Below, one piece after another: positions 1,503-17,335 of a stretch of DNA of 39,827 nt. The notes beneath the pieces were generated by a model, which was given only the letters and a program-made list of their open reading frames with translations, made no database searches and was not told where the DNA came from. The translations under genes were made by a program, and so were the position numbers. This DNA is from Fibrobacter sp. Its GTDB lineage: Bacteria; Fibrobacterota; Chitinivibrionia; Chitinivibrionales; Chitinispirillaceae. The stretch covers positions 1-39,827 of the forward strand of contig JAAYEB010000195.1 in NCBI GenBank assembly GCA_012728995.1. The letters are read 5' to 3'. Within the stretch, counting starts at the first letter, position 1, and every line of letters starts with the position of its first letter.

Positions 1503-1504
1503 TT

Positions 1505-3268
1505 CTATTTCCAGTCATCATTTTTCAGGAGCTGAATTTTAAGAAACTCACGAAACTTTCTCTTTAAAACCGCGAATCTCTCTTTTTCTTTCGTATCCGG
1601 TACCGATAAATTTGCAAGTGTAATATACCCGATGCGAAATGCACAATATGCTGTCAAATAAAAAGGAAGACGTGATTCTATATCAACATCGTTTGTTAAT
1701 CTGATATAATGATCAACAAGTTTTCTTTTCATCTTTTCTTCTAATTCAAATTCAATCATGAAGCCGGCAATGTCCCAGGCGATATTCTGGCAACCAATAA
1801 AAAACTGATCGCTCCAGTGTTCAAGTGAATCCACTTTTTTAAACCCGTTTTCTGTCTTTATCCATTCATGTGACATCACATGACCATCAATAGCGACTAC
1901 ATTGTGTTGATATGATGATGAAGGAAACTGTTTTATAACCCTTTGGGCGTTTTCTACCCATTCACTCCCCAATCCTTCAGTTGTGTTTTGTAAAATCATT
2001 GCAGTCATGTTTTCCCATGTCGCGGTTAACTCCGCGGTAAATTCATTGTTGATTAAAGCGAAATATTCAGCAACAAACTTTATAAATTCTTCATCAACAT
2101 TCTCAGGTTTCATTGGAACACCTTCAATAAATGGCATAATTACAAAACCATTTGCATAGCCCCTTATTTCGGGACAGAAACGGGATTTTCCGAGCACAAT
2201 TCCTCTTTTAATTATCTCTTTTCCATAGTTTCCCAAACCAGCAAATTTTGCCAAAAGGATTGTGTTATTTTCTTTCCCTTTACCTTTTAAAAGGTATTTT
2301 CTTTTTTCATGATGAGGATGAACGGCTGGATAATCTTTTTCCGATTGAATTAAATGCTTTCTCCACAAACCAGCAGAAAACTCTTTCAGGATATCACAAT
2401 TAAATCCGGTTTCCAGTTTCCCGCTTTTAATCCATAAATGTTGAAATTCACCTACAAATTTTTCGAATCCCGGCCATATTTCTCGTGCAGTCTTTGAAAC
2501 AAAATTTCTCCCGTCAGATTCCCAACTTGGAAAAATAACAATCTTTTTTGGATCAACGCCCAGGATTAACAGTTTGTTTACAGTTCCTCCGATAGTTGAC
2601 CCACTCAACCCAGGCCCCTCATCTACTATGATAAACCATAAATGATTATTATCCCTGACAAAGTTCTCCAGTTCCCTTGATAGTACAAGATAACGAGAAA
2701 ATGGATGTCCCTTTAAACGAACCGTAAATGAGTGTACATTACAATTATTATTGATGAGCTGTGCAGACACCAATGCAGAGAGCTGTGTACCTATACTTCT
2801 TATTCCTATACAAACCACATTACCAGGTTCGTACTTTTCATAAAATCTATCGGCTGCATCAATATAGGTTTCAGGATATAAGCCATAATATACGAATCCC
2901 TCAGGAACATTTACTTTTATATTTCCTGGTGTTTCCATTACTCTGATTTTATTTATTGTATTTCGAATATGATCTGTTTCATCAGAAAGTGTTTTCCCAT
3001 TCCATAGTTTACATACAATTTTGCCTGAGTTAATAGAAAGCGATCTGCACAGTTTTATCAGCAAAGCACTGGTTTCACCATTTTCGCCACTTAAATAATC
3101 TGTTATTCCGGTTTCCAGTTCACCACAGTCTATTAACAGATCAATAGCATCCTGATAGTTTATTTTTTCCTTTTCAACATTTTCCAGACCGGAATAAATC
3201 CGATTTATATAATCTTCAGTTATTCCAATACTGTGATGATTTCTAAAAACAATCATATTGAATCTCAT
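1505..3268 (-). CDS. Phosphoribosyltransferase-like / phosphotransferase-like fusion protein
   Basis: This 587-aa protein shows two probable domains. Residues about 120-260 look like a type I phosphoribosyltransferase: V-V-C-I-G-I-R-S-I-G-T near 151-161, then I-V-D-E-G-P-G-L-S-G-S-T-I-G-G at about 214-228, matching the acidic pair plus PRPP loop. Residues about 320-540 resemble an aminoglycoside-phosphotransferase/choline-kinase fold: D-G-H-V-M-S-H-E-W at 461-469 in the catalytic-loop position, K-V-D-S-L-E-H at 478-484 as the metal-binding Asp, and a following N-I-A-W-D-I-A-G. The canonical H-G-D...N kinase loop is altered, so kinase activity is uncertain. The N-terminal ~110 residues were not recognised. 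It overlaps the upstream phosphatase gene by 26 bp. Domain calls are by motif only. Confidence 0.6.
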   Translation of the reverse strand: MRFNMIVFRNHHSIGITEDYINRIYSGLENVEKEKINYQDAIDLLIDCGELETGITDYLSGENGETSALLIKLCRSLSINSGKIVCKLWNGKTLSDETDHIRNTINKIRVMETPGNIKVNVPEGFVYYGLYPETYIDAADRFYEKYEPGNVVCIGIRSIGTQLSALVSAQLINNNCNVHSFTVRLKGHPFSRYLVLSRELENFVRDNNHLWFIIVDEGPGLSGSTIGGTVNKLLILGVDPKKIVIFPSWESDGRNFVSKTAREIWPGFEKFVGEFQHLWIKSGKLETGFNCDILKEFSAGLWRKHLIQSEKDYPAVHPHHEKRKYLLKGKGKENNTILLAKFAGLGNYGKEIIKRGIVLGKSRFCPEIRGYANGFVIMPFIEGVPMKPENVDEEFIKFVAEYFALINNEFTAELTATWENMTAMILQNTTEGLGSEWVENAQRVIKQFPSSSYQHNVVAIDGHVMSHEWIKTENGFKKVDSLEHWSDQFFIGCQNIAWDIAGFMIEFELEEKMKRKLVDHYIRLTNDVDIESRLPFYLTAYCAFRIGYITLANLSVPDTKEKERFAVLKRKFREFLKIQLLKNDDWK

Positions 3269-3854
3269 CCACGTTGCAATTTACACCATTCAAGACCGGT
3301 CCATAATCACTTGTTTCCAGAATTGTAATGGATGCAGTATCTATTGAAAACCTGTTTATCATATCTAACGGAAAACCGGCATAATTTATAATCGCAGTTT
3401 TGATTGTATCACAATGAGAAACTGTTATTATATTACCGTTAAACAATTTTCTTTTTCTTTCGATAAAATTACATATTCTTGCCTGTACTTCGATCATCAT
3501 TTCACCACCAGGTATTTTGAACCTGCCCTTTGCTTCATTAAACTCTTTCCACAATGGATCACAAGACAGCTCCTTAAAAGCCATGCCGGTCCATTTACCG
3601 TAATCCACCTCATCAAGCTCTTCACATACAACAGGTTTTGCATTTATTTGCTTACCAATAATTTCTGCTGTTTCAACTGTCCGTTCCAGAGGTCCGGTAT
3701 AAAGGGCACTAACAGGGATATCCTTCAATTTCGTGGCCAGCATTTCTATTTGGTGCTTTCCTGTTTGGTTTAATGAAATCCCTTTTTTTCTTCCGGCAAT
3801 ATATTTGCCAACAGCATCACACATTCCATGCCTGACAAGAAAATACCTGGTCAT
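3243..3854 (-). CDS. Histidine phosphatase family protein (phosphoglycerate mutase-like) 1
   Basis: This 203-aa protein belongs to branch 1 of the histidine phosphatase superfamily. The phosphate-accepting histidine lies in L-V-R-H-G at residues 6-10. The second arginine is in G-P-L-E-R-T-V-E-T-A, the acid in D-E-V-D-Y-G-K-W-T-G, and the second catalytic histidine in T-V-S-H-C-D. It most likely removes phosphate from a sugar phosphate or phosphorylated pathway intermediate. It is a paralogue of the gene at 8744-9352 in the same operon. The start overlaps the upstream acyltransferase stop by 4 bp, and its 3' end overlaps the PRTase-kinase start by 26 bp. Substrate unknown. Confidence 0.85.
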   Translation of the reverse strand: MTRYFLVRHGMCDAVGKYIAGRKKGISLNQTGKHQIEMLATKLKDIPVSALYTGPLERTVETAEIIGKQINAKPVVCEELDEVDYGKWTGMAFKELSCDPLWKEFNEAKGRFKIPGGEMMIEVQARICNFIERKRKLFNGNIITVSHCDTIKTAIINYAGFPLDMINRFSIDTASITILETSDYGPVLNGVNCNVDEIQYDCF

Positions 3855-4861
3855 TTTTTAAAAACCCTTATTTGACAGTTGTATTTATTGTAAGGTTTCC
3901 ATTTATACTTGTACGATTCGTTTCCCCGTAAAAAATCAAAATATTTCAATCTCTTTTTAACGGCATCATCAATAACGTGATATAGCATTACCGTTCCTGG
4001 ACTGTATTTTTCCATAGTGGGGTCGAATCCACCCAGATATGCGTAAGCGGTATCATTTTTTGTAAATATATAATATGCTGCAACTGCATTTTGGCCTATT
4101 CTCATTATGTAAACATCAACCATTTTCCTGTTTTTAAGCTCACTCGAAACTTTCCTGTAAAACCGCAAAAGAGTTTCTTCTTTCATTACTCCCGGGAGCA
4201 TTCTGCTTTCCCATCTGGCACGATGCAGCCACACCAGTTCATCAAGGTTTTTTATAATATCTTTTCCTGAATCAGTTGAGATATTAACATTCTCATTTAA
4301 CTCGATTTTACGGTTGCATCTCCGGATATTGTTCCTGAATTTTTTTGACATGATCTTAAACAGTTTATCCATCGAGTCGGGAAGAACGAGATACGGACAT
4401 GTGCTCTGTATAAATATTTTACCGGACAGGTTTTCCGGCATTCTACTTTTTAACAGAATGCTTTCCTGTTTTAACTCCTGAAAATCACACTCATCCCATT
4501 CCTTTTGAATATCAGCTACATATTTCCAAACATGTTCAATTCCCTTAACAGAATACTGCGGATCTATCAGAACATCAAGATAATCAGAAATACCGGTTCC
4601 CATTAAACACAATATACTCCTTTTTTCTTTTTTGTATATAAAAAAGGGAGCAATACCAACAAGTTTGTCATTATCCCACAATGACAAGACCCTCATTCTG
4701 TCACAACCAAAATATTGCCACCAACAATAAAGCCAGTATGGAGACTGAAACGGTGAAGCCACCAGGCAGTTATCGTACAATCTTTCCCATTGCGGAATTA
4801 ATTGTTTTAATGATTTTTCATCATTAATTTCATATGATTTCATATTATCTATCAAGCGCAT
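3851..4861 (-). CDS. BioF2/FemAB-like GNAT-fold acyltransferase
   Basis: This 336-aa protein has the features of the GNAT_6 (BioF2-like, formerly CelD/BcsL) family: an N-terminal S-P-F-Q-S-P-Y-W-L segment, a central M-S-K-K-F-R-N-N-I-R-R basic helix, and a C-terminal Y-Y-I-F-T-K-N-D-T-A-Y-A-Y-L-G-G-F-D block followed by Y-F-D-F-L-R-G. Members transfer acyl or aminoacyl groups and are frequent in exopolysaccharide and glycan clusters. A role in N- or O-acylating a sugar, perhaps after PIG-L deacetylation, is inference. The ATG at 4861 overlaps the upstream glycosyltransferase by 10 bp; an internal Met at 4843 is an alternative start. Confidence 0.75.
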   Translation of the reverse strand: MRLIDNMKSYEINDEKSLKQLIPQWERLYDNCLVASPFQSPYWLYCWWQYFGCDRMRVLSLWDNDKLVGIAPFFIYKKEKRSILCLMGTGISDYLDVLIDPQYSVKGIEHVWKYVADIQKEWDECDFQELKQESILLKSRMPENLSGKIFIQSTCPYLVLPDSMDKLFKIMSKKFRNNIRRCNRKIELNENVNISTDSGKDIIKNLDELVWLHRARWESRMLPGVMKEETLLRFYRKVSSELKNRKMVDVYIMRIGQNAVAAYYIFTKNDTAYAYLGGFDPTMEKYSPGTVMLYHVIDDAVKKRLKYFDFLRGNESYKYKWKPYNKYNCQIRVFKK

Positions 4862-5952
4862 TTTTTTGTTTTGCTATTATTATCGATCCGGTTATCAGTA
4901 TCAGATCCGTTGTATTCTGTTAACCTGCTATATAACTGGAAATATTGATTAACCATTTTATCGATAGAATAATTTTCCTTTACATACCTGTAACAGTCAC
5001 AAGAATTTATCAGATGCGTCATGTTAATCGCTTCTGCCATTTCTTTTTCATCATTTACCAGATATCCATTATACCCATCTTTTACTATTTCATTAAGCGC
5101 ACCTGCTCTAAATGCAATAACCGGGGTTCCATAAGCCATCGCTTCAAGTGCAACAAGAGAACTGGTTTCCTGAACAAGGCTTGGTATCAAAAGGCATCTT
5201 GCAGAACAAAGTAATCTTTTTTTCTCACTGATTCCTGCACTTCCAATGAAACGGTATCTGAAGTTATCACATCTTGGAAGAATCTGTTCCCGGTAGTAAT
5301 TTAGATGTTCCATATAAGGGAAAACTGTCCCTGCATGCAGATGTGCCATTTTTGCTTTCCTGGCTGCATCAAATGCAATATGGTATCCTTTTTCCGGACA
5401 GATCCTTCCTATAGACAAAGTAAAGTTATGTCTTTTGCATCTTAAAGGTTGTAATGGCACTGGTATGCCATTATCAATAGCTCCAAGTAATCCATGAATA
5501 TTGTTGCATGTAGAATTCTGATATCCTGAAACACAGTTATAATGAATGTTGTTTTTGTTTTTTGAGATAAATTCATGGTTATACCATGAGATGGGCAGAT
5601 GTAGAGTTACTAAAACCGGAATTCTGATCGATGGTAAATATTTGTCAAAATCAACACCATGAAAATGAATCACATCAACATTTCTGATCCCGGCAACATT
5701 CAATATCAGTTTTTTGTATATTTTATAAGTTCTTTCACGGATCTGCTGATCAACTATCGAATCTGGAACCGGAGGCCCTGCAAACAACTCACCTTTTACA
5801 TTTGAACCTTCTGAAGCGATAACAATTGAATTATATCCCCGATTTGTAATGGCATCATCAAGAGCCAACAATATCTGCTCAGCACCTCCTGCGGTATCTT
5901 CTTTGATCCTTGCAAAAGGGAATGCAACACTGAGAATTGTATTTAGTTTCAT
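4852..5952 (-). CDS. Glycosyltransferase family 4 (GT-B fold)
   Basis: This 366-aa retaining GT-B glycosyltransferase has an N-terminal acceptor domain with the typical G-G-A-E-Q loop (residues 22-26), an H-F-H-G-V strand near 96-100, and an S-I-G-R-I-C-P-E-K-G nucleotide-sugar domain entry (180-189). The EX7E motif is E262...E270 in Q-E-T-S-S-L-V-A-L-E-A-M. There is no signal peptide or membrane segment, so it acts in the cytosol. It follows the PIG-L deacetylase by two bases. A GT4 next to a PIG-L deacetylase recalls mycothiol/bacillithiol and GlcNAc-conjugate pathways, but nothing here proves such a product. Donor and acceptor unknown. Confidence 0.87.
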   Translation of the reverse strand: MKLNTILSVAFPFARIKEDTAGGAEQILLALDDAITNRGYNSIVIASEGSNVKGELFAGPPVPDSIVDQQIRERTYKIYKKLILNVAGIRNVDVIHFHGVDFDKYLPSIRIPVLVTLHLPISWYNHEFISKNKNNIHYNCVSGYQNSTCNNIHGLLGAIDNGIPVPLQPLRCKRHNFTLSIGRICPEKGYHIAFDAARKAKMAHLHAGTVFPYMEHLNYYREQILPRCDNFRYRFIGSAGISEKKRLLCSARCLLIPSLVQETSSLVALEAMAYGTPVIAFRAGALNEIVKDGYNGYLVNDEKEMAEAINMTHLINSCDCYRYVKENYSIDKMVNQYFQLYSRLTEYNGSDTDNRIDNNSKTKKCA

Positions 5953-5954
5953 TT

Positions 5955-6785
5955 TTAATTTTCTCCAAGCCTTAGAACCCGCATAGCTTCATTTGCCAGT
6001 CTAAGCCATCTGCTGCTGCTCATTCCCCAGTGATAATAATCATAATAAAGTGTACCTTCATGCGGTAAAAGAGAAAAGTCATATGAGGGTGCATTTCTTA
6101 ATTGTTCGTATTTTACAGTAAATTCCGATAATACATCTCTTTGCGTTCTGAAACACTCTATCATCTGTTTCTTCAAATTCTGTTCCATATTACTAAGCTT
6201 AATTTCAACCACTTCAGTATTTTCATCAGGAATAAACCTGTTTGTAATAATCTGATTGCTTCCATTACCATGATACGATGCGAACTCAACAACATCAGGT
6301 GTTTGTTTATTCTCCCTTTGAAGCATCCTGCATGCTGCCCATACTCCAAAAGCAGTTGCATCATGATCCGGATGTCCCCCTTCATAAGCATGTGCCAGAA
6401 CAAGTTGAGGTTTCATCCTTTCAATCAACTCCACTATCCTTAATGATACCCCTGGTAAATTCAATGAAGCTTCCTGATCAATAAATTCCAGTGAAATACA
6501 ATCTGGAGATTTATGTCCTGCCAGATTTAATGCAGAAATCATCTCTACTCTACGTTTCTTCGCGTAAGCCTGCCGTGATGTACATCCTGATTTAATCGCA
6601 TCAATCATGTTTCTGGGAGATCCATCTGTAACATGAACGATCTGAACGTTTTTCAAATATCTAAGGAGCGATCCAATTCCTACCACTTCATCATCGGGAT
6701 GAGCAGCTATAAGCATTGTTCTAAGGTCGTCAAAATTTACATTTTCATTTTTTATCAATTGTCTTAATTTATGTTTTGAACTCAT
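5955..6785 (-). CDS. PIG-L family deacetylase (LmbE-like)
   Basis: This 276-aa zinc-dependent N-acetylglucosaminyl deacetylase-type protein carries the metal-binding and catalytic motif A-H-P-D-D-E at about residues 28-33. The second metal-ligand segment, E-G-G-H-P-D-H-D-A, lies near 135-145. The family removes acetyl from GlcNAc units in GPI precursors, mycothiol, bacillithiol and various glycoconjugates. In this operon it would supply a free amino sugar, perhaps the substrate of the BioF2-like acyltransferase two genes downstream (inference). The 118-bp gap before it (6786-6903) is one of the widest inside the operon and could hold an internal promoter; none was recognised. Confidence 0.9.
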   Translation of the reverse strand: MSSKHKLRQLIKNENVNFDDLRTMLIAAHPDDEVVGIGSLLRYLKNVQIVHVTDGSPRNMIDAIKSGCTSRQAYAKKRRVEMISALNLAGHKSPDCISLEFIDQEASLNLPGVSLRIVELIERMKPQLVLAHAYEGGHPDHDATAFGVWAACRMLQRENKQTPDVVEFASYHGNGSNQIITNRFIPDENTEVVEIKLSNMEQNLKKQMIECFRTQRDVLSEFTVKYEQLRNAPSYDFSLLPHEGTLYYDYYHWGMSSSRWLRLANEAMRVLRLGEN

Positions 6786-6903
6786 AATTATATTTTTACC
6801 AATTGATCAAAAATATTATGACTTCCATAAATATTTATTTCTGCATTCACAATAAATCAGACATTACGAACCCGGCGCTGAACAATCAATTTTGGATCTC
6901 GAT

Positions 6904-7653
6904 TCAGGAATTATAAACAGGCATGCTTTCTGAAAGCATGATCAATGCTTCACGATATCCATTTATTGTTCCTACATCAACATAAGCTTTGCCCGCTTTT
7001 GTTCCGTACGCAATCCCGCCGCTTTCGATATATTCATTTATCAGTGTACCCAGATATTCATCTTTACAGTTTCTTCTTTTCCATAATTCGTAAAGATACT
7101 GTAACACACTGCCACTCATTTTAACAGCACCCCAAATCCATTTTTCCTGGCAGTTTTTCTGTTTAACATGGATTTTTTTTATAAAACCCGAATTATCCAT
7201 TGTAACTGCATCATAAAGCTCCGGATGCACAACCGGAAACAGTAAAAATGAAAGAGGACAGTTTCCAAGAGCACATAGACAATTTTCCGGAAACCATACA
7301 GTATCCGGTAAACCAATTATCACATAATCATCAATGCCAATAAGAGGTAAAGCACAAAACAAGGCATCACACAACCCTGAAGGATTCTGCTGAACAGTAT
7401 AACAGAAGTATGCATTTCCCTGTCCCTGTCCATAATACCTGATTATATCCAGTTTACCTGGAGATATCACAACACATATTTTATTTACACCTGCCATTAT
7501 CATCCGTTCAATAATGTATTCACTGATTGCCCGTGGTCGTTCTGTTTCTTCATTTCTGAAACTTCCTACCGGGAGGAGCTCCTTTGAAAATGCAAGCGGT
7601 TGAATCCGTGTTCCACTCCCTGCAGCCGGAATGATTCCCCATAATGAGCCCAT
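6904..7653 (-). CDS. Sugar-phosphate nucleotidylyltransferase
   Basis: This 249-aa GT-A-like nucleotidyltransferase opens with G-I-I-P-A-A-G-S-G-T-R-I-Q-P-L (residues 6-20), the NTP-binding loop, followed by F-S-K-E-L-L-P-V-G containing the conserved lysine (K24). The metal-binding Asp is in I-G-L-P-D-T-V-W-F (D117), where GalU/RmlA relatives usually have L-G-D or L-P-D-D. A terminal A-Y-V-D-V-G-T block supplies the sugar-side acid. It would activate a sugar-1-phosphate for the glycosyltransferases. At 249 aa it is shorter than RmlA/GalU (about 290-300). An AAAGGAAC ribosome-binding site precedes the ATG by a few bases. Sugar and nucleotide specificity cannot be read. Confidence 0.85.
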   Translation of the reverse strand: MGSLWGIIPAAGSGTRIQPLAFSKELLPVGSFRNEETERPRAISEYIIERMIMAGVNKICVVISPGKLDIIRYYGQGQGNAYFCYTVQQNPSGLCDALFCALPLIGIDDYVIIGLPDTVWFPENCLCALGNCPLSFLLFPVVHPELYDAVTMDNSGFIKKIHVKQKNCQEKWIWGAVKMSGSVLQYLYELWKRRNCKDEYLGTLINEYIESGGIAYGTKAGKAYVDVGTINGYREALIMLSESMPVYNS

Positions 7654-7665
7654 AATTATGTTCCT

Positions 7666-8727
7666 TTAAAATTGTGATACAATTTTAACCAATTCTTCTG
7701 CTCTATGTTTGGCAGTATGTTGTGACAAGCATCTTTTTCTGGCTTGCATTGCGATTTTCAGGCGTTCTTCATCACTCATTTCAATTATTTCCACAACTTG
7801 CTGTGAATTTTCAGCTATCAAAATTTCCTCTCCCGGAATAAAAAAATTATCCAGTCCGTCCCACCAGTCACTTATCACGGCGACGCCACAAATTGCAGCT
7901 TCAAAAAGCCTTCCAGACGGACAAAATCCGTTTTTAGCCATAGCTTCTCTTGTAATATTCAGAGTAAATTTGCTTGAACAGTAGAAGGATGGATGGTCTG
8001 GAGGAGCAATGTGCTCATAATAACAGATGTTTTCACTCCATGGGAAATCATTAGGATACATAACCCCTCCCAGAATGAATCTTTTTTGAGGTACTTTTTT
8101 TGCGGGTTCAACGAATAATTCAACCAGTTTTTTTTGGCGGTCTGCTGCGAATGTTCCCATATACGAAAGGTCTCCGTTATAAATTTTCAAAATGTCAGAT
8201 GGAAAATGAGTCTCTGAATCGGCACACCCATATAACGGAAATACTGAACTTGCCCCAAGTACTGATTTTAACTTCCCGAGTACTGCACCTCCTGTAAAAC
8301 TCAAAATGCAGTCGTACATGCCTAAACCTTTATCAGGAATATAAGGCGGCCACGAATTGTTTTCTATACTTTGCAATGTGACAGGTGTATCCAGATCATA
8401 AAATATTTTTAATATACCGGTCATATTCTCAAGCGATTCTGTTACTGAAGCTGCATCGGGGCAATATGAAGTCACAATTGCAACATCAGCGTATTTAAAC
8501 CTTATTCTTGCAGTAGTTTCAACCTGTATCCAGTTTTCATACAGTATTAACTCCATTCCATCAATTACTGTTAAATCCCTGTTGGAAGCATAATACTGAA
8601 CATCTTTTTCAAAAAAAGTAATCCGGTGTCCCATACCTGCCAATGCCCGTATCAACCCTCGCCAGATTGTAGCATGACCATTTCCCCATGAAGAACTTAC
8701 AGATAACCCAAAGATGACAAATGTCAT
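7666..8727 (-). CDS. CgeB-like glycosyltransferase 1
   Basis: This 353-aa GT-B protein of the CgeB / Glyco_trans_1_2 type begins M-T-F-V-I-F-G-L and then shows S-S-W-G-N-G-H-A-T (residues 12-20), a motif shared with the CgeB-like protein at 10490-11614. The F-Y-D-L-D-T-P-V-T strand and the C-terminal S-G-R-L-F-E-A-A-I-C-G-V-A-V-I-S-D-W-W nucleotide-sugar-binding block are typical. CgeB was first described in Bacillus spore-surface maturation; homologues are uncharacterised glycosyltransferases. A GGGAG ribosome-binding site sits just before the ATG. It lies between a histidine phosphatase and the nucleotidylyltransferase. Donor and acceptor unknown. Confidence 0.82.
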   Translation of the reverse strand: MTFVIFGLSVSSSWGNGHATIWRGLIRALAGMGHRITFFEKDVQYYASNRDLTVIDGMELILYENWIQVETTARIRFKYADVAIVTSYCPDAASVTESLENMTGILKIFYDLDTPVTLQSIENNSWPPYIPDKGLGMYDCILSFTGGAVLGKLKSVLGASSVFPLYGCADSETHFPSDILKIYNGDLSYMGTFAADRQKKLVELFVEPAKKVPQKRFILGGVMYPNDFPWSENICYYEHIAPPDHPSFYCSSKFTLNITREAMAKNGFCPSGRLFEAAICGVAVISDWWDGLDNFFIPGEEILIAENSQQVVEIIEMSDEERLKIAMQARKRCLSQHTAKHRAEELVKIVSQF

Positions 8728-8743
8728 TTCAGTCTCCCGACAG

Positions 8744-9352
8744 TTAAAAACGTGTTTTACTGAATTTTTTCAGATTTATTCCTCTGATTTCAACAAGGTC
8801 GTGATACATTGACAAAATACTGATTGAAGCTGTCGTGATTGTTATACGATGAAACATATCCAGAGAAATACCCAGATAATGGGCAATAACAGATTTTATT
8901 GGATCATTATGACTTACCAGAACCAGGGTCTTTCCCTGGTGTTTTCTAAACAGTTCTTCAATCAATTTGACCATTCTTGCTTCGACTTCAACCATCAATT
9001 CACCATCAGGAATAATTGTTCCGTTTCTATAGGAATGGAATTGCTTCCACTCTGGATCGGATTCCAGATCTGCAAATTTTTTTCCGGTCCAGTTTCCAAA
9101 ATTGATTTCAACAAGAGGATCACATTTCTGAATTTCAATTGATCTATTTTGGGCGATTATATTTGCAGATTCGACTGTTCTGTCAAGAGGGCTTGCGTAA
9201 ATGGCATCTATTTTTACATCAGCAAGGGATTCAGACAGTTTCTTCATTTGTTCGACTCCCTCGGGGCTCAAGTGTACATCCGGAAGTCTTCCAGGAACTC
9301 TCTGAGCCATGTCTATATTTCCATGCCGTATAAGTAAAATATCTGTTTTCAC
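8744..9352 (-). CDS. Histidine phosphatase family protein (phosphoglycerate mutase-like) 2
   Basis: This is a paralogue of 3243-3854. Catalytic features: L-I-R-H-G near the N terminus, S-P-L-D-R-T-V-E-S-A, E-I-N-F-G-N-W-T-G and the second histidine in L-V-S-H-N-D. The frame can extend upstream to a TTG at 9406, but the GTG at 9352 (V-K-T-D-I-L-L-I-R-H-G) gives 202 aa and lines up with the start of the 203-aa paralogue, so it is preferred; the ribosome-binding site is weak at either start. Two such phosphatases in one operon suggest two separate dephosphorylation steps or two phosphorylated intermediates (inference). Confidence 0.83.
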   Translation of the reverse strand: MKTDILLIRHGNIDMAQRVPGRLPDVHLSPEGVEQMKKLSESLADVKIDAIYASPLDRTVESANIIAQNRSIEIQKCDPLVEINFGNWTGKKFADLESDPEWKQFHSYRNGTIIPDGELMVEVEARMVKLIEELFRKHQGKTLVLVSHNDPIKSVIAHYLGISLDMFHRITITTASISILSMYHDLVEIRGINLKKFSKTRF

Positions 9353-9480
9353 GATAATTTCAATCCGATGTTCACAAATAGACCTCTCGATCTCTTTGCT
9401 TAACAACTGTTAACCTGATTCATTTCTGCCAGAAACGAATAAATCAGGTGTTTACATGAGTCATTTTATACTATTCAGAT

Positions 9481-10386
9481 TCATGTTTTATCGGTTTTAT
9501 ATTTTGAGTCAATGACATACCTTTTCACGATATCAACTGCAAACTGAGCGAATTCTTCTGGATAAATCGGAGGACTTGTAACTGTTGCCCGTTTTCCCCT
9601 TGATGGTGGAGTAAAACATAATGTTATGGTCGTATCAAAATCCTTCAACTTTTCCATTTTGAAATCAAACCACTTTGTTGCATCCTTTCTATGCCAATCT
9701 GCCCAGCTAATTCCGGTTCTAAGTTTTCTGACTCCCAGTTTTTTCAACCATTCAATTGCAAACAACAATCTGTGATCCTCATAATGAAACCACTGGCAAA
9801 TACCCATTCCTGGATCAAAATATTTTATCGCCTGTTTTGGCTTTCCATTTGCATCTATCAGTCCCATGTAAAAATGACGGTAATATGCGCTCCCTTCACT
9901 TTCCCTGTGCCGTGTTGTAGCTTCCCAGGTTGGTGGAAGATCCAGAAGGCTATACCAGAAAATATTGGGTACCAGGTTCATAAGAAGTTCGTTCGTTCGC
10001 TTTAATCCAAAAACTTGTACTTCCTCAGCCCCGAAACTTGATGCACCAACTTCCGTAACCCATATCGGAAGCTGACATATATTTCTTATCTGCTTTACTT
10101 TTTTGGGCCATTCATCTATCATCCAGTGATTCCAGTCCAGCGGAAAACCATGTATTGCAACAGCATCATAATATTCCATTAATCCATAGCTTGCCAAAAG
10201 TGATATAAATTGTGGATCTATAGGTGATATCCCCCCCAGTATAATTTTGACAGTTGGCGCAACCGACCGGATACTTATTGCAGCGATTCTGGCCATTTCT
10301 GAAAATTCTTTCCATTCAGGATCAATCGTAAAATCCCAATGTGAAAGATTATTTGGTTCATTCCATATTTTTATTGCTTCTACCAT
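9481..10386 (-). CDS. Clan GH-A glycosidase-like protein with circularly permuted TIM barrel
   Basis: This 301-aa protein has the catalytic pair of a 4/7-type retaining glycosidase (GH39/beta-xylosidase-like): N-E-P-N at residues 9-12 (acid/base, normally the end of strand 4) and V-T-E-V-G near 111-115 (nucleophile, strand 7). The order is unusual: the first strand is the NEP strand, strands 5-8 follow, and sequence resembling strands 1-3 comes last (G-M-G-I-C-Q-W near 194-200, L-R-T-G-I-S-W near 222-228, T-L-C-F-T-P-P near 255-261). The C terminus stops after a helix that would normally lead into strand 4. ATG 10386 is chosen because GGAG lies 5 bases upstream; a GTG at 10392 is also in frame. 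There is no signal peptide. Activity unproven. Confidence 0.72.
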   Translation of the reverse strand: MVEAIKIWNEPNNLSHWDFTIDPEWKEFSEMARIAAISIRSVAPTVKIILGGISPIDPQFISLLASYGLMEYYDAVAIHGFPLDWNHWMIDEWPKKVKQIRNICQLPIWVTEVGASSFGAEEVQVFGLKRTNELLMNLVPNIFWYSLLDLPPTWEATTRHRESEGSAYYRHFYMGLIDANGKPKQAIKYFDPGMGICQWFHYEDHRLLFAIEWLKKLGVRKLRTGISWADWHRKDATKWFDFKMEKLKDFDTTITLCFTPPSRGKRATVTSPPIYPEEFAQFAVDIVKRYVIDSKYKTDKT

Positions 10387-10489
10387 ACCCACTCCAATTT
10401 ACAGCAGCAATAAAATCCTTGCCTTCTCTAGTTTTCCAAAAGCCGGAATCTAATGATGCAGAAGTTTTTGATGCCAATCAGTCAAATAC

Positions 10490-11614
10490 CTATTTTTTGT
10501 AAACAATAGATTTATACAACAGATTATGTTGCTTCCTTCTTCTGGCTTCATGCACATAATTTTCCAGTTCTTCTGCCCTGTGTGATGCGGTATGCCTTGA
10601 CATTACTTTCTTATGCGCACGAAGACCTGTTTTTATCCTTTCATCCTCGCTCATTGAACACAGATAACGGAGAGTGTGTTCCCGGGATGAACTTAAAAGT
10701 ATTTCATCATCAAGTGAAAAAAAAGTACTTAACCCCTCCCAGTAATCACTTATTACAGGAACAGCACACGCCGCAGCTTCAAATAATCTGACACTTGGTG
10801 CATATCCCGCCTGTACCATATCTGCCCTGGTAATATTAAGAGTAAACCTTTGTGAATTATAGAACTCGCGATGTTTTTTTGGGGGGATATGTTCAAAATG
10901 AGAAATATTTTCAGGCCATGACAGTTTTTCCGGGTATTGTGGACCTGCAATAACAAATCGCCCCCGAGGCCATTTCCTTGCTGATTCAATAAACAGTTTT
11001 TCGAGATGTTCCTGCCTGTCTTCACTGTATGTACCCATATATCCAAAGTCATATTGTGCATCCATTTTTTCGGGATAATACAGTGAAGGATCTACAGAAC
11101 AATACAATGGTCTTGCCATAGGAGAACCATAAAGTTTTTCAATTATCTCCAGCACCGGTCCTCCTGCAAATGATAAATACAGATCATAACTTTGAACAAG
11201 TTGAGGTGTCAGATACTCATAATTTCTCTTTAACAGTTTTGAAACCGTCACGGGTGTATCTATGTCATAGAATGCAGTCAGCCCCCTTGCAGTATTTGTT
11301 ACCCACTCTCCAACAACAGCACCTTCCGGTACATATGAACCAACAACTACCAGATCAGCTCTTTTGACGACATGTTCGAATTTACTTTTCAGTTCATTAA
11401 ACGATTTGTATAAACATACAGAAACATAAGGTGGATTTACCAGATCCCTGTTTCCTGCATACCATGGCATATCATGTTCCAAAAAAAGAATCTTATGTCC
11501 CCGTGATGCTAATGCTTTTGTCAACCCCCTGTATGTAGTTGCATGACCGTTGCCCCATGAAGAAGTTATTGTCAATCCAATGAAAACCATATCAAACGAT
11601 GTCGTCATAATCAC
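10490..11614 (-). CDS. CgeB-like glycosyltransferase 2
   Basis: This 374-aa protein is a close paralogue of the product of 7666-8727. It shares S-S-W-G-N-G-H-A-T-T-Y-R-G-L (about residues 18-31), A-G-N-R-D-L, F-Y-D-I-D-T-P-V-T and the C-terminal S-V-R-L-F-E-A-A-A-C-A-V-P-V-I-S-D-Y-W block. The GTG at 11614 is favoured because a GGGAGG ribosome-binding site lies 7 bases upstream, inside the end of the preceding gene; ATG 11608 is possible. The start overlaps the upstream stop by 4 bp. It is cytosolic with no membrane segments. Likely adds a different sugar, or the same sugar to a different acceptor, than its paralogues (inference). Confidence 0.82.
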   Translation of the reverse strand: MIMTTSFDMVFIGLTITSSWGNGHATTYRGLTKALASRGHKILFLEHDMPWYAGNRDLVNPPYVSVCLYKSFNELKSKFEHVVKRADLVVVGSYVPEGAVVGEWVTNTARGLTAFYDIDTPVTVSKLLKRNYEYLTPQLVQSYDLYLSFAGGPVLEIIEKLYGSPMARPLYCSVDPSLYYPEKMDAQYDFGYMGTYSEDRQEHLEKLFIESARKWPRGRFVIAGPQYPEKLSWPENISHFEHIPPKKHREFYNSQRFTLNITRADMVQAGYAPSVRLFEAAACAVPVISDYWEGLSTFFSLDDEILLSSSREHTLRYLCSMSEDERIKTGLRAHKKVMSRHTASHRAEELENYVHEARRRKQHNLLYKSIVYKK

Positions 11615-12717
11615 TGAACTGCCTCCCTGTTCGTTTCTTTACAGTTTTCTAAAACTTTCTCCACAAGTTGAGCTCTGTGTCTGTATGTATGCTCGGACAG
11701 TACCCGTTCTCTTGCTGCCTTTCCTATCTGTCTGGCATCTGTTAAAGTAAGATCCTTCAGATATTGAGCTACTTCATCTCCGTTTTCTGCGACAAGACAT
11801 TCCCTGCCGGGTTCAAGAAACGTCTCAACTCCTTTCCACTTGTCAGTAATAATGCATGCACCGGCACCGGCAGCTTCGAAAATTCTTGTTGGGGGTGAAA
11901 AACCACATGATGCCATTGAGTTTCTATTTACATTCAGAACAGCCAGTACTGAACAGTTAAAACTGTTATGTTCATGTGTGTACACATGGCCTGTTTTTCT
12001 GACATTCACCATTTTTTCTGTATCTGTTTCCCATCCGTTTCCTCCAAGTAAAAATAACTTATCCTTTAATTTTAAAGCTGGTTTGAAGAAATATTCCTTT
12101 ACACGTTCTTCCCTGTCGGGAAGTCTATTTCCAAGAAAGCCCAGTGTTCCCTCAAATCGTGGATCCGAAGGAACCGGAAAATGTGTTTCGGGATCAAGCG
12201 CATTATAAACCGGAAAACATTTTATGGCTCCGTATTTTTTATAAGTATCAATGACATTTTGCCCACCACCGTATGTTAATATTGCATCATACATTTTTAT
12301 CAGATTCCGGAACTGATCCAGTTGGTCGTTTTCTATTCTGTCTAATGTTGCAGGTGCATCAACATCCCAGAACAGTATAGCTTTATTTGTTGTCTGGTAA
12401 TTGAGTAACTTTTGTTCAAGAAACGAATCATAAACACCAACGCCGCTTGCTTTAATAATAATATCTGCATCCGATGCCTGTTTTATAACTCTTTCTACGT
12501 CATCATTTACTGCTTTGTAAATTACACTTTTCACAAAATCAATATTTACAAAATCTTTGTGTTCCTGTCGATTGTATGCTTCCGGTTCATAAAAGGTCAC
12601 TTTATGACCATTTGCTGCAAGCTCTTTTATAATTCCTCTATAATAGGTTGCAGCACCATTCCAATAGGCAGAAACAATACTTGATCCGAAAAATGCGATA
12701 TTCATTCCGTCATTCAT
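11611..12717 (-). CDS. CgeB-like glycosyltransferase 3
   Basis: This 368-aa member of the CgeB-like set has S-A-Y-W-N-G-A-A-T-Y-Y-R-G-I (residues 16-29) where the two closest paralogues have S-S-W-G-N-G-H-A-T. The central strand is F-W-D-V-D-A-P-A-T and the C-terminal donor block is F-S-P-P-T-R-I-F-E-A-A-G-A-G-A-C-I-I-T-D-K-W. A GGAGAAATAA leader precedes ATG 12717, which begins directly after the stop codon of the gene upstream (no gap). The fold and family are supported by the shared architecture; donor sugar and acceptor are not readable. Confidence 0.8.
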   Translation of the reverse strand: MNDGMNIAFFGSSIVSAYWNGAATYYRGIIKELAANGHKVTFYEPEAYNRQEHKDFVNIDFVKSVIYKAVNDDVERVIKQASDADIIIKASGVGVYDSFLEQKLLNYQTTNKAILFWDVDAPATLDRIENDQLDQFRNLIKMYDAILTYGGGQNVIDTYKKYGAIKCFPVYNALDPETHFPVPSDPRFEGTLGFLGNRLPDREERVKEYFFKPALKLKDKLFLLGGNGWETDTEKMVNVRKTGHVYTHEHNSFNCSVLAVLNVNRNSMASCGFSPPTRIFEAAGAGACIITDKWKGVETFLEPGRECLVAENGDEVAQYLKDLTLTDARQIGKAARERVLSEHTYRHRAQLVEKVLENCKETNREAVQ

Positions 12718-13857
12718 TTATTTCTCCGTTGTTGTAATTTTTTCATTAATTTTGAATTCTGTATTTACACCATTTAATTCACTCATGATTTTGAACAGTT
12801 CATTTACCCGATGTACACAAGTGTGTTTTTGCATTACTGTTTCATAACCATTGAGAGCGATTTCTTGTGCATATTCCCTGTCATTTATCAATGTTCTGAT
12901 TATTTTTTCCATTTCGATACCATTATTTGCTACAAGATAATCTCTTCCTTTCCTGAATAAACCCTCACAGTCATCCCAGGGCGAACATACCAGCGGAATA
13001 CCACATGCCATTGCTTCAAACGGCCTTATGGTAGGGATTCCTCTTAATAATTTCACATAAGGTTTTCGCGGTACATGAATTGTCAACAAGTGTTCAGAAA
13101 AAATCTGTGGCACTCCATAATTTGGAAGCCAGCCGCAATGTTCAATACCATAACTATAAAGCAAATCTATTGCAGTTTTTGGAAATCTTACACCATAAAC
13201 ACTACATTTCAATGCAAGATTCCTGGCAGGCTCAAAAAGGAATTCTCTTAATTCGTTGCTTCGTTCCTCATCACCCCAGTTTCCTATCCACACCAGATCC
13301 TTTTTTATACCTGTATTTTTTATTGGTTTAAAAATGTTTGTATCTGCAGCTTCATGCCAGGTCCACGCCCTTTGTATAAATCCATTTTCCAGATAGATAG
13401 ACCGAATTTTTTCACCAAAAGCCAGAACACCATCATAGTATCTTAAATCAAGACCAGCCAATGAGTGCGGATCGGTTACAACCCTGTGGTGTGTATCATG
13501 AAAAAAAAGAATATATCCCCGATTGTTTTTTCGATGTAAACCTATTCTGCTTACAATGGATGGATCATTCCATTCATGCACTATAACCAGATCTGCATTA
13601 TCCAAAACCATGTCAAGGTTGATGTTTTCCGGATGATATCGAATACTGTACAGATCAGGATAATAATCATGAAATTCATCCATAACTTTATATCCTTCAA
13701 ACCTGACAAGATTTTTCAGACTCCATGAATCAAATGGTTCATAAACTTCAACATCATGGTTTCTTCTTATAAGTTCAGATACAATGCCGCGCAGAAAGTG
13801 CGCGTTGCCATGATTCCAGTCTGAAATTAATGATTGTAAAAAAAAGACTATTCGCAT
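12718..13857 (-). CDS. CgeB-like glycosyltransferase 4 (most divergent)
   Basis: This 379-aa protein has the same N-terminal pattern in altered form (S-D-W-N-H-G-N-A-H-F-L-R-G-I, residues 12-25), the V-Y-E-P strand, and a C-terminal block I-R-P-F-E-A-M-A-C-G-I-P-L-V-C-S-P-W-D-D typical of Glyco_trans_1_2. In place of the D-x-D-x-P-x-T strand it has F-F-H-D-T-H-H-R-V-V-T-D-P, making it the most divergent of the four paralogues. It overlaps the upstream GT4 gene by 10 bp and is followed without a gap by CgeB-like 3. Probably adds a different sugar from the others (inference). Confidence 0.8.
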   Translation of the reverse strand: MRIVFFLQSLISDWNHGNAHFLRGIVSELIRRNHDVEVYEPFDSWSLKNLVRFEGYKVMDEFHDYYPDLYSIRYHPENINLDMVLDNADLVIVHEWNDPSIVSRIGLHRKNNRGYILFFHDTHHRVVTDPHSLAGLDLRYYDGVLAFGEKIRSIYLENGFIQRAWTWHEAADTNIFKPIKNTGIKKDLVWIGNWGDEERSNELREFLFEPARNLALKCSVYGVRFPKTAIDLLYSYGIEHCGWLPNYGVPQIFSEHLLTIHVPRKPYVKLLRGIPTIRPFEAMACGIPLVCSPWDDCEGLFRKGRDYLVANNGIEMEKIIRTLINDREYAQEIALNGYETVMQKHTCVHRVNELFKIMSELNGVNTEFKINEKITTTEK

Positions 13858-14987
13858 ATCTTTTCGATTCCATTTCTGTTATTCTGATAGTTTGAATCTT
13901 CCAGACAGGACGTTGCAGAACCTGTCATTTCATCATAAAGATTCAAGTATTGACAACTCATTATATAGGATGTAAATTGCAATGATTTCTCGTGGGCACG
14001 AATACTGTATTCTTCTCTCAGCTTTTCTGAATCTATAAGATCGTTCAGTATTTCCTTTAAAACTTCTTTGTCATTTGGATTCACATATATTGCGGCATCA
14101 CCCCATATTTCCTTAAAGCTGTCAATTTCACTTAAAACAAGCGGACAGCCACACAATGCAGCTTCAAGAACACAATATCCGAAAGGTTCGTATAAAGAAG
14201 TTGAAACAAAAACTGATGCACGCCCCATCCAACCTGCAATTTCTTTTTGTGAAATAACTCCAAGGTGTTTTAAATTATGTAATTTTATTTTTTGATTTTC
14301 ACCTGCGGCAATAACAGGCCATTTCAGATCTGGTGCTATTTCGCAGAGCTGTTTTGTGTTTTTAGCTTTATCCCATAACCTTCCAGCCGTAAAAATGTAT
14401 GGTTCTTTTTTTTGCGGAACAAATTGAAGCGGATCACGGCCATTATAAATAACTGAAGCATTCCAGTTTTTTTCATAGTAACAGTTTAATAATCGTTTCA
14501 TATACAAGCTGGGTACTACGATCCGATCTGCCCCCATCAAACCGTTTTTTACCATTCTTTTGTATTTTGTATATTGTTTAGGTATTTCGACTCCCATAAC
14601 CTGACCAAACCATGAACATACACAAGAATGGGCTGTAACAAGTACTGGTGCATGCCATGGCAATTCACCATATACATATCCATTCAGATGAACAATGTCC
14701 GGATGAGTAATTATCTCCAGTTCAAGGAGCCATTCAGAAGCTTCATCGACATCTTTCCATGGGTCATCCATCCATTCGAGTTTATAACTGCTCTCGAATA
14801 ATTCTACGTTTGTAATTCCTGCAATCTGCTGAAGCTGATGTTTTGCAGGCAGAGGACCCATTGTTGCAAGTGCAACTTCGATTCCCTTTTTCTGATATTC
14901 TTTTACAAGATCTACAACATATGTCCAGACACCTCCAACCGTATCAGTTGTCATAAGAACCCGTTTTACTGATCGCCTGTTATGCAT
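13848..14987 (-). CDS. Glycosyltransferase family 4 (GT-B fold)
   Basis: This 379-aa retaining glycosyltransferase has the N-terminal T-D-T-V-G-G-V-W-T-Y loop (residues 14-23), typical of GT4 enzymes near the acceptor site, and the acceptor-domain strand D-I-V-H-L-N-G-Y. The donor domain opens at I-F-T-A-G-R-L-W-D-K-A-K-N (198-210), and the EX7E motif is E267...E275 in Y-E-P-F-G-Y-C-V-L-E-A. An AGGAG ribosome-binding site precedes the ATG. No membrane segment is visible. It is the first glycosyltransferase gene in the transcriptional order, so it might act early in assembly, though gene order is weak evidence. Confidence 0.87.
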   Translation of the reverse strand: MHNRRSVKRVLMTTDTVGGVWTYVVDLVKEYQKKGIEVALATMGPLPAKHQLQQIAGITNVELFESSYKLEWMDDPWKDVDEASEWLLELEIITHPDIVHLNGYVYGELPWHAPVLVTAHSCVCSWFGQVMGVEIPKQYTKYKRMVKNGLMGADRIVVPSLYMKRLLNCYYEKNWNASVIYNGRDPLQFVPQKKEPYIFTAGRLWDKAKNTKQLCEIAPDLKWPVIAAGENQKIKLHNLKHLGVISQKEIAGWMGRASVFVSTSLYEPFGYCVLEAALCGCPLVLSEIDSFKEIWGDAAIYVNPNDKEVLKEILNDLIDSEKLREEYSIRAHEKSLQFTSYIMSCQYLNLYDEMTGSATSCLEDSNYQNNRNGIEKICE

Positions 14988-15001
14988 TTATTTACTCCTC
15001 A

Positions 15002-15289
15002 TCATTCTCCATTGCGATTAACAAATTTATAAAACCTGTTGGTTACATCCTCTGCTCCGCATCGTTCATATACAAAAGCTAAATGGGCCTGATCAAATCT
15101 TGTAAAAAATTCTTCCCAGGATACCTGTACATATTGTTCTTCCAGAAGAGTGTCAGAAAATATTACCTGTATCACTCCTTTACCCTCAACAGGAGTCCTG
15201 TTTTCGATTCTGACCAGTCGTCCATTCCTTGATTCAATCCATTTGCGAATCCTTGAATGATCAATTGTCTGTTCAATATCATTCGTCAT
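15002..15289 (-). CDS. Small conserved protein of unknown function (95 aa)
   Basis: This 95-aa acidic protein has the pattern D-H-S-R-I-R-K-W-I-E-S-R-N-G-R near the N terminus and Q-V-S-W-E-E-F-F-T-R-F-D-Q-A-H-L-A-F-V-Y-E near residues 56-76. It resembles a widespread short family with H-x-x-I-R-x-W-x-E-x-R-G-G and S-W-E-E-F-F-x-x-F-D-x-x-x-L-A-F-L-Y, which is often labelled '1,4-alpha-glucan branching enzyme' although it is far too short to be one (from memory). No catalytic motif is visible. It sits between the Gfo/Idh/MocA gene and the first GT4 gene, so it is cotranscribed with the pathway; a role in it is inference. Confidence 0.75.
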   Translation of the reverse strand: MTNDIEQTIDHSRIRKWIESRNGRLVRIENRTPVEGKGVIQVIFSDTLLEEQYVQVSWEEFFTRFDQAHLAFVYERCGAEDVTNRFYKFVNRNGE

Positions 15290-15305
15290 AATATTTTATC
15301 AAACA

Positions 15306-16322
15306 TTAATCTGCATTATTGTAGATTGTGTCAATTATCAATGCTGTATTTTCTATTTGACCTACAGACTTGTCGAATTCACAGTTTGCAGATAACTTTT
15401 GAGCCCATTTATTTATTGCTCTCCCCCACCAGTCATCAGGTGGTGAACAGAGGACCTGTCGCGAAGTATTCATGTATTTTTCAGCTCTGAAATTGTAAAA
15501 TGACCCATTCAGGTTGTAAAAACTCAAGCCTCCATTCTTACCATACATATTAAGCCTGATAATTGCATCAGTACCGGCATTAAGATTCCATGAACAAGCG
15601 ATATTGACATTACATCCGGTTTCAAGTTCCATTCTTACAACAGCGTAATCCTCTACCTTACCATTTTTTCTTTTATATCTTTGTCCGCCGCAAAACAACT
15701 TTCCCCAAATCTCATAGATATCCGGGAAACCGAATAACCATAATATCAGATCAATCAGATGAACACCCAAATCAATCAGACATCCTCCACCAGAAAGCGC
15801 CGGATCATAAAACCATTTTTTATCAGGTCCGTATGCATTATGAAATACAGCATCTACTGCATAAATTTCACCTATTTCTCCATTTTGTAAAATATTCCGA
15901 AAATGTCTGGAAGCTTCAAGGTATCTGTAAGACATATCAATATCGAGCAGACAGTTTTTTTGCGATGCCAGACTGATCACTTGACCAGTTTCTTTACAAT
16001 TCCTTCCCAGGGGTTTTTGACAAAATACAGGTATGCCTGCTTCAAGTGCTGCACATGCCTGCTGAACATGAAATGCATTGGGAGTTGCTATTACAATTCC
16101 ATCTGGCTCCAGACTGATTACTTCATCCAGTGTTCTGCAAATCACATGATCCTGATATATCGAAGCAGCTTCCCTGATTCTTTCATCCGAAATATCTGAA
16201 ATTATGGCTGTATCAACAATTCCGCATTCTTTTAAAGCTTTCATTCTGCTGCAACCAATCCAGCCCGTACCTACAAATCCCAGTCTGAGTGTACCAGTTT
16301 GTATTTGCAAATCTTTATTCAT
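15306..16322 (-). CDS. Gfo/Idh/MocA family NAD(P)-dependent oxidoreductase
   Basis: This 338-aa protein has an N-terminal Rossmann fold with L-G-F-V-G-T-G-W-I-G (residues 14-23), the family Q-K-P-L-G motif with the conserved lysine at about 102, and D-L-G-V-H-L-I-D-L in the C-terminal alpha/beta domain. The family oxidises or reduces sugars, nucleotide sugars and inositols, and in sugar clusters often makes keto- or uronate-derived intermediates. ATG 16322 overlaps the stop of the upstream dehydrogenase by 4 bp, indicating coupled translation. Both this and the neighbouring MDR enzyme could work on the same sugar (inference). Confidence 0.88.
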   Translation of the reverse strand: MNKDLQIQTGTLRLGFVGTGWIGCSRMKALKECGIVDTAIISDISDERIREAASIYQDHVICRTLDEVISLEPDGIVIATPNAFHVQQACAALEAGIPVFCQKPLGRNCKETGQVISLASQKNCLLDIDMSYRYLEASRHFRNILQNGEIGEIYAVDAVFHNAYGPDKKWFYDPALSGGGCLIDLGVHLIDLILWLFGFPDIYEIWGKLFCGGQRYKRKNGKVEDYAVVRMELETGCNVNIACSWNLNAGTDAIIRLNMYGKNGGLSFYNLNGSFYNFRAEKYMNTSRQVLCSPPDDWWGRAINKWAQKLSANCEFDKSVGQIENTALIIDTIYNNAD

Positions 16323-17335
16323 AACATCACCAGCGCTTTCACAAATCCTTCAGGCCTGTTTAATACCGTATCAAAAGCATCATTGATTTCATCTAATGCA
16401 TATATGTGTGTAAAAAAAGGCTGAGGATCGAGCTGTTTTCTTTCTACAGCTTTTATAGCAGTTCTTATCCCGTCGATACAAATCTGCGGCTCCCGTTCAT
16501 GAGCATTTATGACATCTATACCTCGCCAGTTCCAGGATTGCATATTAACAGATCTAAACCCGTCCTGATGATATCCGGCAATGATCAATCGTCCCCTTAT
16601 CTTAACAAGTTCTCCGGCAAGATCGAGCGGTTTCTGATATCCAGTTGCTTCAATAACACAATCATAGCCATCGGGGCATAACCTGTTTTTGATTTTCAAC
16701 GATTCCTCTGCTGATCCATCATATTCAATAGTGGTTTCAACCCCGATTCTTTGGGCAAATTTTAAAGCACTTCTGTTTCGTGATATAACCACAACATTTG
16801 CACCCACTCCGAGAGCGAGTGAACTCAAAATCAAACCAATAAAACCAGCACCAACAACTGCGACATTCTGTCCTTTTCTTATATTACATCGGTTAAATAT
16901 ATTCATGGCACAACCAAGCGGTTCACCCGGTAAACATATTCCCTCGAGCTGTGATGGTATAGGGACAACCATATTTTCAGATACAACATTGTATTCAGCA
17001 AAAGCATTTTGGGACAACAATGCTACCCACTGGCCAGGGAAATATGATTTAACATCTGAACCAGTTTCTTCGATTCTTCCCCACCCCTCATGGCCTGGCG
17101 CCCCCTTTTCAAGCGGGTATTTAAACCAGGGTCTTCCCTCCCAGACCGGAAGGTTGGAACTGCATATACCACATCCCTTTAAATGAACCAGAATCTCTTT
17201 CGCACCTGGAGCGGGTACCGGGAAAGCATTGATCGAATATTTCCCGGGAGCTTCACATACAGCAGCCATCATTGTCCTTGTCCCGGTCTTACTTGTTTCA
17301 CATATTTTATCTGATACTGAAGTACAGTTTTTCAT
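16319..17335 (-). CDS. Zinc-type medium-chain alcohol/sugar dehydrogenase (MDR)
   Basis: This is a 338-aa MDR-superfamily protein. The catalytic zinc region is G-C-G-I-C-S-S-N (about 54-61) followed by G-H-E-G-W-G (81-86). The nucleotide fold shows V-V-G-A-G-F-I-G-L (160-168). The four-cysteine structural-zinc lobe of classical alcohol dehydrogenases is not visible. ATG 17335 overlaps the upstream stop by 4 bp, but an internal ATG at 17272 (M-M-A-A-V-C-E-A-P-G) has an AAGGACA leader and fits family N termini better, so the protein may be 317 aa. Likely a polyol or sugar dehydrogenase serving the glycan pathway; substrate unknown. Confidence 0.85.
   Translation of the reverse strand: MKNCTSVSDKICETSKTGTRTMMAAVCEAPGKYSINAFPVPAPGAKEILVHLKGCGICSSNLPVWEGRPWFKYPLEKGAPGHEGWGRIEETGSDVKSYFPGQWVALLSQNAFAEYNVVSENMVVPIPSQLEGICLPGEPLGCAMNIFNRCNIRKGQNVAVVGAGFIGLILSSLALGVGANVVVISRNRSALKFAQRIGVETTIEYDGSAEESLKIKNRLCPDGYDCVIEATGYQKPLDLAGELVKIRGRLIIAGYHQDGFRSVNMQSWNWRGIDVINAHEREPQICIDGIRTAIKAVERKQLDPQPFFTHIYALDEINDAFDTVLNRPEGFVKALVML

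Follow-up and report, generated by a model that had tools for sequence, protein, structure and literature searches.

Circular permutation of a glycosidase barrel related to clan GH-A, encoded within a conserved TIGR04290 gene cluster of bacteria

The window analysed here (a stretch of 39,827 nucleotides from Fibrobacter sp., contig JAAYEB010000195.1) contains a gene for a 301-aa protein that is best explained as a (beta/alpha)8 glycosidase barrel with a circularly permuted order of strands. The permutation itself is practically beyond doubt, and we are very confident that it is a natural and ancient rearrangement of a barrel related to clan GH-A. It is old and family-wide, and is not a local event in the Fibrobacter sp. 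genome. The chain would pass through the barrel strands in the order 4-5-6-7-8-1-2-3. A short loop would connect the original termini (strand 1 and helix 8), and the present chain ends would lie within the alpha3-beta4 loop, on the side of the barrel remote from the active site. Judged by sequence, the nearest solved relative is the GH39-like enzyme PslG. The features are itemized in Table 1.

Table 1. Features of the permuted gene, its surrounding cluster and the canonical sister proteins
Feature	Position or accession	Strand	Remarks or basis
Permuted glycosidase gene	9481..10386	-	Intact ORF, 301 aa + stop, ATG at 10386
Codons 1-192, barrel strands 4-8	9811..10386	-	Predicted secondary structure; alignments with PslG and fusions
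Codons 193-292, barrel strands 1-3 and helix 3	9511..9810	-	Predicted secondary structure; alignments with PslG and fusions
GGAG, ribosome-binding-like site	10392..10395	-	5 bases before ATG at 10386; sequence
E10 codon, predicted acid/base glutamate (strand 4, W-N-E-P)	10357..10359	-	Invariance; PslG alignment
E112 codon, predicted nucleophile glutamate (strand 7, W-V-T-E)	10051..10053	-	Invariance; PslG alignment
TIGR04290 methyltransferase	735-1502	-	
Uncharacterised 587 aa protein	1505-3268	-	
Histidine phosphatases	3243-3854, 8744-9406	-	
GNAT	3851-4861	-	
GT4	4852-5952, 13848-14987	-	
PIG-L deacetylase	5955-6785	-	
Nucleotidyltransferase	6904-7653	-	
CgeB-like glycosyltransferases	7666-8727, 10490-13857	-	
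Gfo/Idh	15306-16322	-	
Alcohol dehydrogenase	16319-17335	-	
Two epimerases	17332-19508	-	
Canonical GH-epimerase fusions, Rhizobium/Tistrella clusters	WP_014747405.1, WP_011427519.1		

The ORF is translated without an internal stop. Close to its N terminus the protein reads W8-N9-E10-P11-N12-N13, so that the translation confirms the N-E-P from which the first-pass annotation proposed that strand 4 comes first in the chain. The same annotation put V-T-E-V-G at residues 111-115; the motif is present but the numbering was one off, the segment being W109-V110-T111-E112-V113-G114. The segments GMGICQW, LRTGISW and TLCFTPP, which had been assigned to strands 1-3 and helix 3, all lie in the last third of the protein, an assignment with which both the predicted fold and the alignments agree. 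The GGAG sequence was read at the spacing that had been noted. Also as claimed earlier, no significant remnant of strands 1-3 was found in the 106 bases before the ATG, where the best local score of 18 was matched by 798 of 1000 shuffles. A candidate upstream remnant based on the phrase GATTGGCAT, which is present in both places, was rejected because its local alignment is no better than those of shuffled sequences. As a possible trace of duplication, repeats flanking the permuted gene comprise short two-copy matches only.

When the family profile in its native order is compared with the PDB, PslG is matched in two swapped pieces (36.3 bits, E 3.2e-8). Profile positions 194-293 align with PslG 21-131 and positions 2-164 with PslG 131-301, the two pieces meeting at PslG 131. 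With the last third of the profile placed first, PslG is matched in one piece (6-254 aligned with 25-301) and the score becomes 51.7 bits (E 6.7e-13); the reordered profile also gains matches to GH1 phospho-glucosidases that run across the junction. E10 and E112 align with residues 139 and 250 of the PslG chain, as counted on the printed alignments. The catalytic glutamates of PslG have been proven experimentally to be E165 and E276 (PMC6813494). Since both pairs are 111 residues apart, we infer that 139 and 250 correspond to E165 and E276 with an offset of 26.

For symmetric barrels a claim of permutation needs sequence similarity that rises after rotation (PMC2395249). Eight rotations were scanned as a single segment, and the rotation with strand 1 first is the best on all eight of the epimerase fusions described below, giving 155-190 bits compared with 98-127 bits for the native order. 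It is also the best on a more distant, secreted enzyme from an acidobacterium (L107), with 86 bits compared with 46. Swapped segments in a homologue, together with a rise in similarity after rotation, are found with both PslG and the fusions, as expected of circular permutants. The split search that had been suggested as a check gives the anticipated outcome: in PslG and in the epimerase-fused relatives alike, the N-terminal part is matched by the last ~100 residues and the part after it by the first ~190; rejoined in the order 1-2-3-4...8, the two form a single continuous alignment of higher score.

The normally ordered sister of the permuted protein is located on replicons of Rhizobium and Tistrella, within a protein of 679-682 aa that is annotated only as an NAD-dependent epimerase. 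The glycosidase, in normal strand order, makes up the first ~305 residues and is attached at the N terminus of the epimerase; the remainder is an orthologue of the window epimerase at 17332-18393 (44-47% identity). The native profile aligns with the 682-aa Tistrella fusion in two swapped pieces (192-290 with 13-113, and 5-190 with 120-303), and the reordered profile in one (2-288 with 14-300, 173.6 bits). Permuted and canonical forms are 28-38% identical. There are 48 positions that are identical in at least 95% of the permuted and in all the canonical sequences, including N9, E10, H79, E112, W144 and R223. In the tree the 43 permuted rows form one group (support 88, not starred) and the eight canonical fusions another; the root is weak owing to saturation of the outgroup branches. 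A plasmid of Rhizobium sp. CB3090 (L115/L116) carries both forms ~15 kb apart, at record positions 1361931-1363916 and 1378567-1379448. Here the fusion takes the place of the epimerase, and the permuted gene follows those for inositol-3-phosphate synthase and a histidine phosphatase. Because of this plasmid, mutual replacement of the two forms does not hold as a general rule.

AlphaFold2, run with 19 aligned family members, predicts a complete (beta/alpha)8 barrel in which eight strands alternate with helices (pLDDT 87.3, pTM 0.88). As a further check proposed in the first-pass annotation, this prediction gives a barrel that is closed, with its eight strands in permuted order. The strands comprise residues 2-7, 47-53, 75-80, 108-113, 141-145, 195-197, 221-227 and 251-257, and the last helix residues 276-292. 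Strand 1 (195-197) is short in the model, and the regions of low confidence are mainly residues 156-168 and the C-terminal tail. E10 follows the first model strand, and E112 lies at the end of the fourth. Both N9-E10 and E112 are invariant in the permuted family and in all the canonical fusions. The protein has the predicted (beta/alpha)8 barrel of clan GH-A, with Asn-Glu terminating strand 4 and Glu terminating strand 7 in the rotated numbering, but in place of the clan's chain order from strand 1 to strand 8 it has strands 4-8 and then 1-3. A Foldseek search of the PDB returned only weak sequential matches to generic barrels, the best being a designed barrel with TMq 0.48; this is expected for a permuted barrel and is uninformative, not positive proof.

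A scan of genome contigs gave 21 homologues with 55-66% identity, from Acidobacteriota, Alphaproteobacteria and one Phycisphaerae MAG. All have the linear order of the query, and most cover residues 1-291. Their reading frames start just before WNEP in nearly all cases, with nothing like strands 1-3 upstream; in L021, where the frame enters from the methyltransferase gene, residues 1-10 are out of frame. A longer gene with strands 1-3 ahead of NEP, the arrangement named beforehand as fatal to the permutation, occurs in none of the homologues. In total 43 non-identical permuted sequences were collected, all with the same order over their full length, and the family extends over at least four bacterial phyla (Fibrobacterota-like relatives, Acidobacteriota, Alphaproteobacteria and Planctomycetota). 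The full-length gene is present in nine of 61 relatives of the Fibrobacter sp. genome, one of which carries two. In G027 (L061 8738-10556) two complete permuted genes lie head to tail on different branches of the tree. Recent tandem duplication was rejected for this pair, as the copies belong to two lineages, and acquisition is the more probable origin of the second copy in this genome. No strand-duplicated or tandem intermediate was found among the genomes searched, and no viral copies of the permuted gene were found.

Plasmid records place the gene on S. meliloti pSymB and on replicons of Azospirillum and Roseomonas, where it is labelled 'beta-xylosidase' or 'hypothetical protein'. It is because of the permutation that family models miss the protein and that it is recorded under these names. 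The curated Pfam cut-off for GH39 is not reached, and the GH39 model matches two of 19 members (best E 8.6e-4). The only Pfam matches of the window protein are Glyco_hydro_cc (19.3 bits, cut-off 21) and GH53 (13 bits, cut-off 24). No NCBIfam model matched it, and there was no Pfam match to GH13 or GH70 for the permuted family.

Two other explanations would dispense with the permutation. TIM barrels can be aligned in several registers, a caution raised for symmetric barrels in PMC2395249, and the protein might be an ordinary pseudo-symmetric barrel with NEP by chance in its own strand 1. This is very improbable, given that similarity rises on rotation, with strand 1 first the best for every epimerase-fused sister and for L107, that the motifs and catalytic residues are in register, and that at PslG 131 one piece ends exactly where the other begins. 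Alternatively, the parts of the gene could have been swapped by a misassembly, frameshift or local rearrangement, the window being drawn from a draft genome of 486 contigs. The chance of this is negligible, since more than 40 sequences, among them complete plasmids such as pSymB, show the same arrangement, as do seven further genomes belonging to the same family, in which synteny is complete; the misassembly or frameshift at the start of the gene that had been put forward as a possible refutation is absent. Circular permutation is accordingly the reading we adopt.

The permuted gene is one of ~18 genes on the same strand (735-19508, minus strand). Across phyla the synteny comprises TIGR04290, three or four CgeB-like glycosyltransferases, GT4, epimerases, Gfo/Idh, alcohol dehydrogenases, histidine phosphatase, PIG-L and nucleotidyltransferase. 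Among the 61 relatives, the nine genomes with a full-length permuted gene are exactly the nine with TIGR04290. In 385 Alphaproteobacteria the permuted gene is present in eight, the fusion in six and both in none; all 14 contain TIGR04290, which itself occurs in 16. As a whole, the TIGR04290 cluster appears to specify a glycoconjugate pathway not yet described. No papers naming TIGR04290 were found in the open-licence literature, and a paper on UDP-apiose considered as context was not relevant, there being no conserved operon. The 587 aa protein has no match in Pfam (E 0.001) or NCBIfam (E 0.01), and is kept across phyla with 28-45% identity; by eye it has a PRPP-type DEGPGLSG loop and possibly a kinase-like C-terminal half. 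There are four related CgeB-type glycosyltransferases (Glyco_trans_1_2), three of them consecutive, and this trio recurs in other phyla. Elsewhere in the window, an ORF of 457 aa (31044-32417, minus strand) looks by eye like an LpxC-FabZ fusion.

From its sequence the permuted protein is likely to be an active glycosidase. Its residues and gene neighbours suggest that it probably acts in the cytosol, as a retaining beta-glycosidase or transglycosidase of the glycoconjugate pathway, and on the same basis there is an even chance that it acts by hydrolysis or transfer on an intermediate of the cluster. Such an enzyme would trim or rearrange an oligosaccharide intermediate. Strand 4 already starts at residue 2, which leaves no space for a signal peptide, and this, together with the fusion of the sister to an epimerase, argues for the cytosol. 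Standalone cytosolic glycosidases are unusual in biosynthesis clusters, and the protein might have a binding or structural role without hydrolase activity. We consider this unlikely, because the catalytic glutamate pair is conserved across phyla and irrespective of chain order, together with the N, R, H and W residues that accompany it in the clan. A closer question, to which we assign somewhat less than an even probability, is whether the permuted and epimerase-fused forms perform different jobs in the pathway and are not interchangeable. Their presence together in one region of CB3090 favours such a division, as does the location of the permuted form next to a histidine phosphatase and often inositol-3-phosphate synthase, neither of which is listed near the R. 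etli fusion. However, 14 of the 16 TIGR04290 genomes in the alphaproteobacterial sample have one form or the other, and none has both.

The permutation most likely arose in a single event in the ancestor of the family, and the permuted gene has probably spread with the glycoconjugate biosynthesis cluster marked by TIGR04290 and CgeB-like glycosyltransferases. The alpha3-beta4 loop and the junction of helix 8 with strand 1 are loops on the barrel face opposite the active site. With both the cut and the junction on that face, the two catalytic glutamates and the loops of the catalytic face are kept, and catalysis should therefore be untouched. The first-pass annotation had proposed permutation through tandem duplication and trimming; the permutation stands, while that route, for which no intermediate was found, would have its precedent in GH70.

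The permuted protein may be compared with several known systems. PslG (PDB 4zn2/5bx9), a GH39-like endoglycosidase of the Psl cluster, is similar over ~250 residues of barrel sequence after reordering (51.7 bits), shares the catalytic Glu pair and is likewise encoded within a polysaccharide biosynthesis cluster. It differs in having the normal strand order, a signal peptide and a longer chain than the ~300 aa of the permuted protein. The canonical GH-epimerase fusion is a sister in sequence, with the same motifs and the same type of gene cluster, but has strands 1-8 in normal order and an attached epimerase. The GH70 glucansucrases, which have a permuted GH13 barrel, start at alpha3-beta4 (PMC4919382). 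They too are natural circular permutants of a glycosidase barrel with almost the same cut, though GH70 begins with helix 3 whereas the barrel described here is cut after it. GH70 belongs to a different clan with different chemistry (alpha-glucans), and its members are large, secreted and multidomain in contrast to a single domain of 301 aa. Transaldolase and class I aldolase provide a natural permutation between TIM barrels (PMC2213659), and beta-glucosidases are named without detail among natural permutants in the introduction to CPSARST (PMC2395249). The aldolases are shifted by two units and are not glycosidases. The beta-glucosidase permutants are changes of domain order, not cuts inside the barrel. 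Among the open-licence papers searched, none describes a permuted enzyme of GH-A or GH39. We think it likely that this is the first natural circular permutation to be described for a clan GH-A-type barrel, arising in one ancient event with an alpha3/beta4 cut independent of GH70, in the same type of cluster as its canonical sister.

Natural permutations of TIM barrels are few, and are usually visible only through structures that have diverged far. Here both chain orders exist as recognisable sisters with the same catalytic residues and the same type of cluster, even within one genome, and the cost or gain of the permutation is therefore testable with two natural enzymes. The near coincidence with the GH70 cut suggests that glycosidase barrels tolerate being cut in the alpha3-beta4 loop. 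If the interpretation is correct, the permuted proteins would deserve a CAZy family of their own, and a preferred natural cut site in glycosidase barrels would be indicated.
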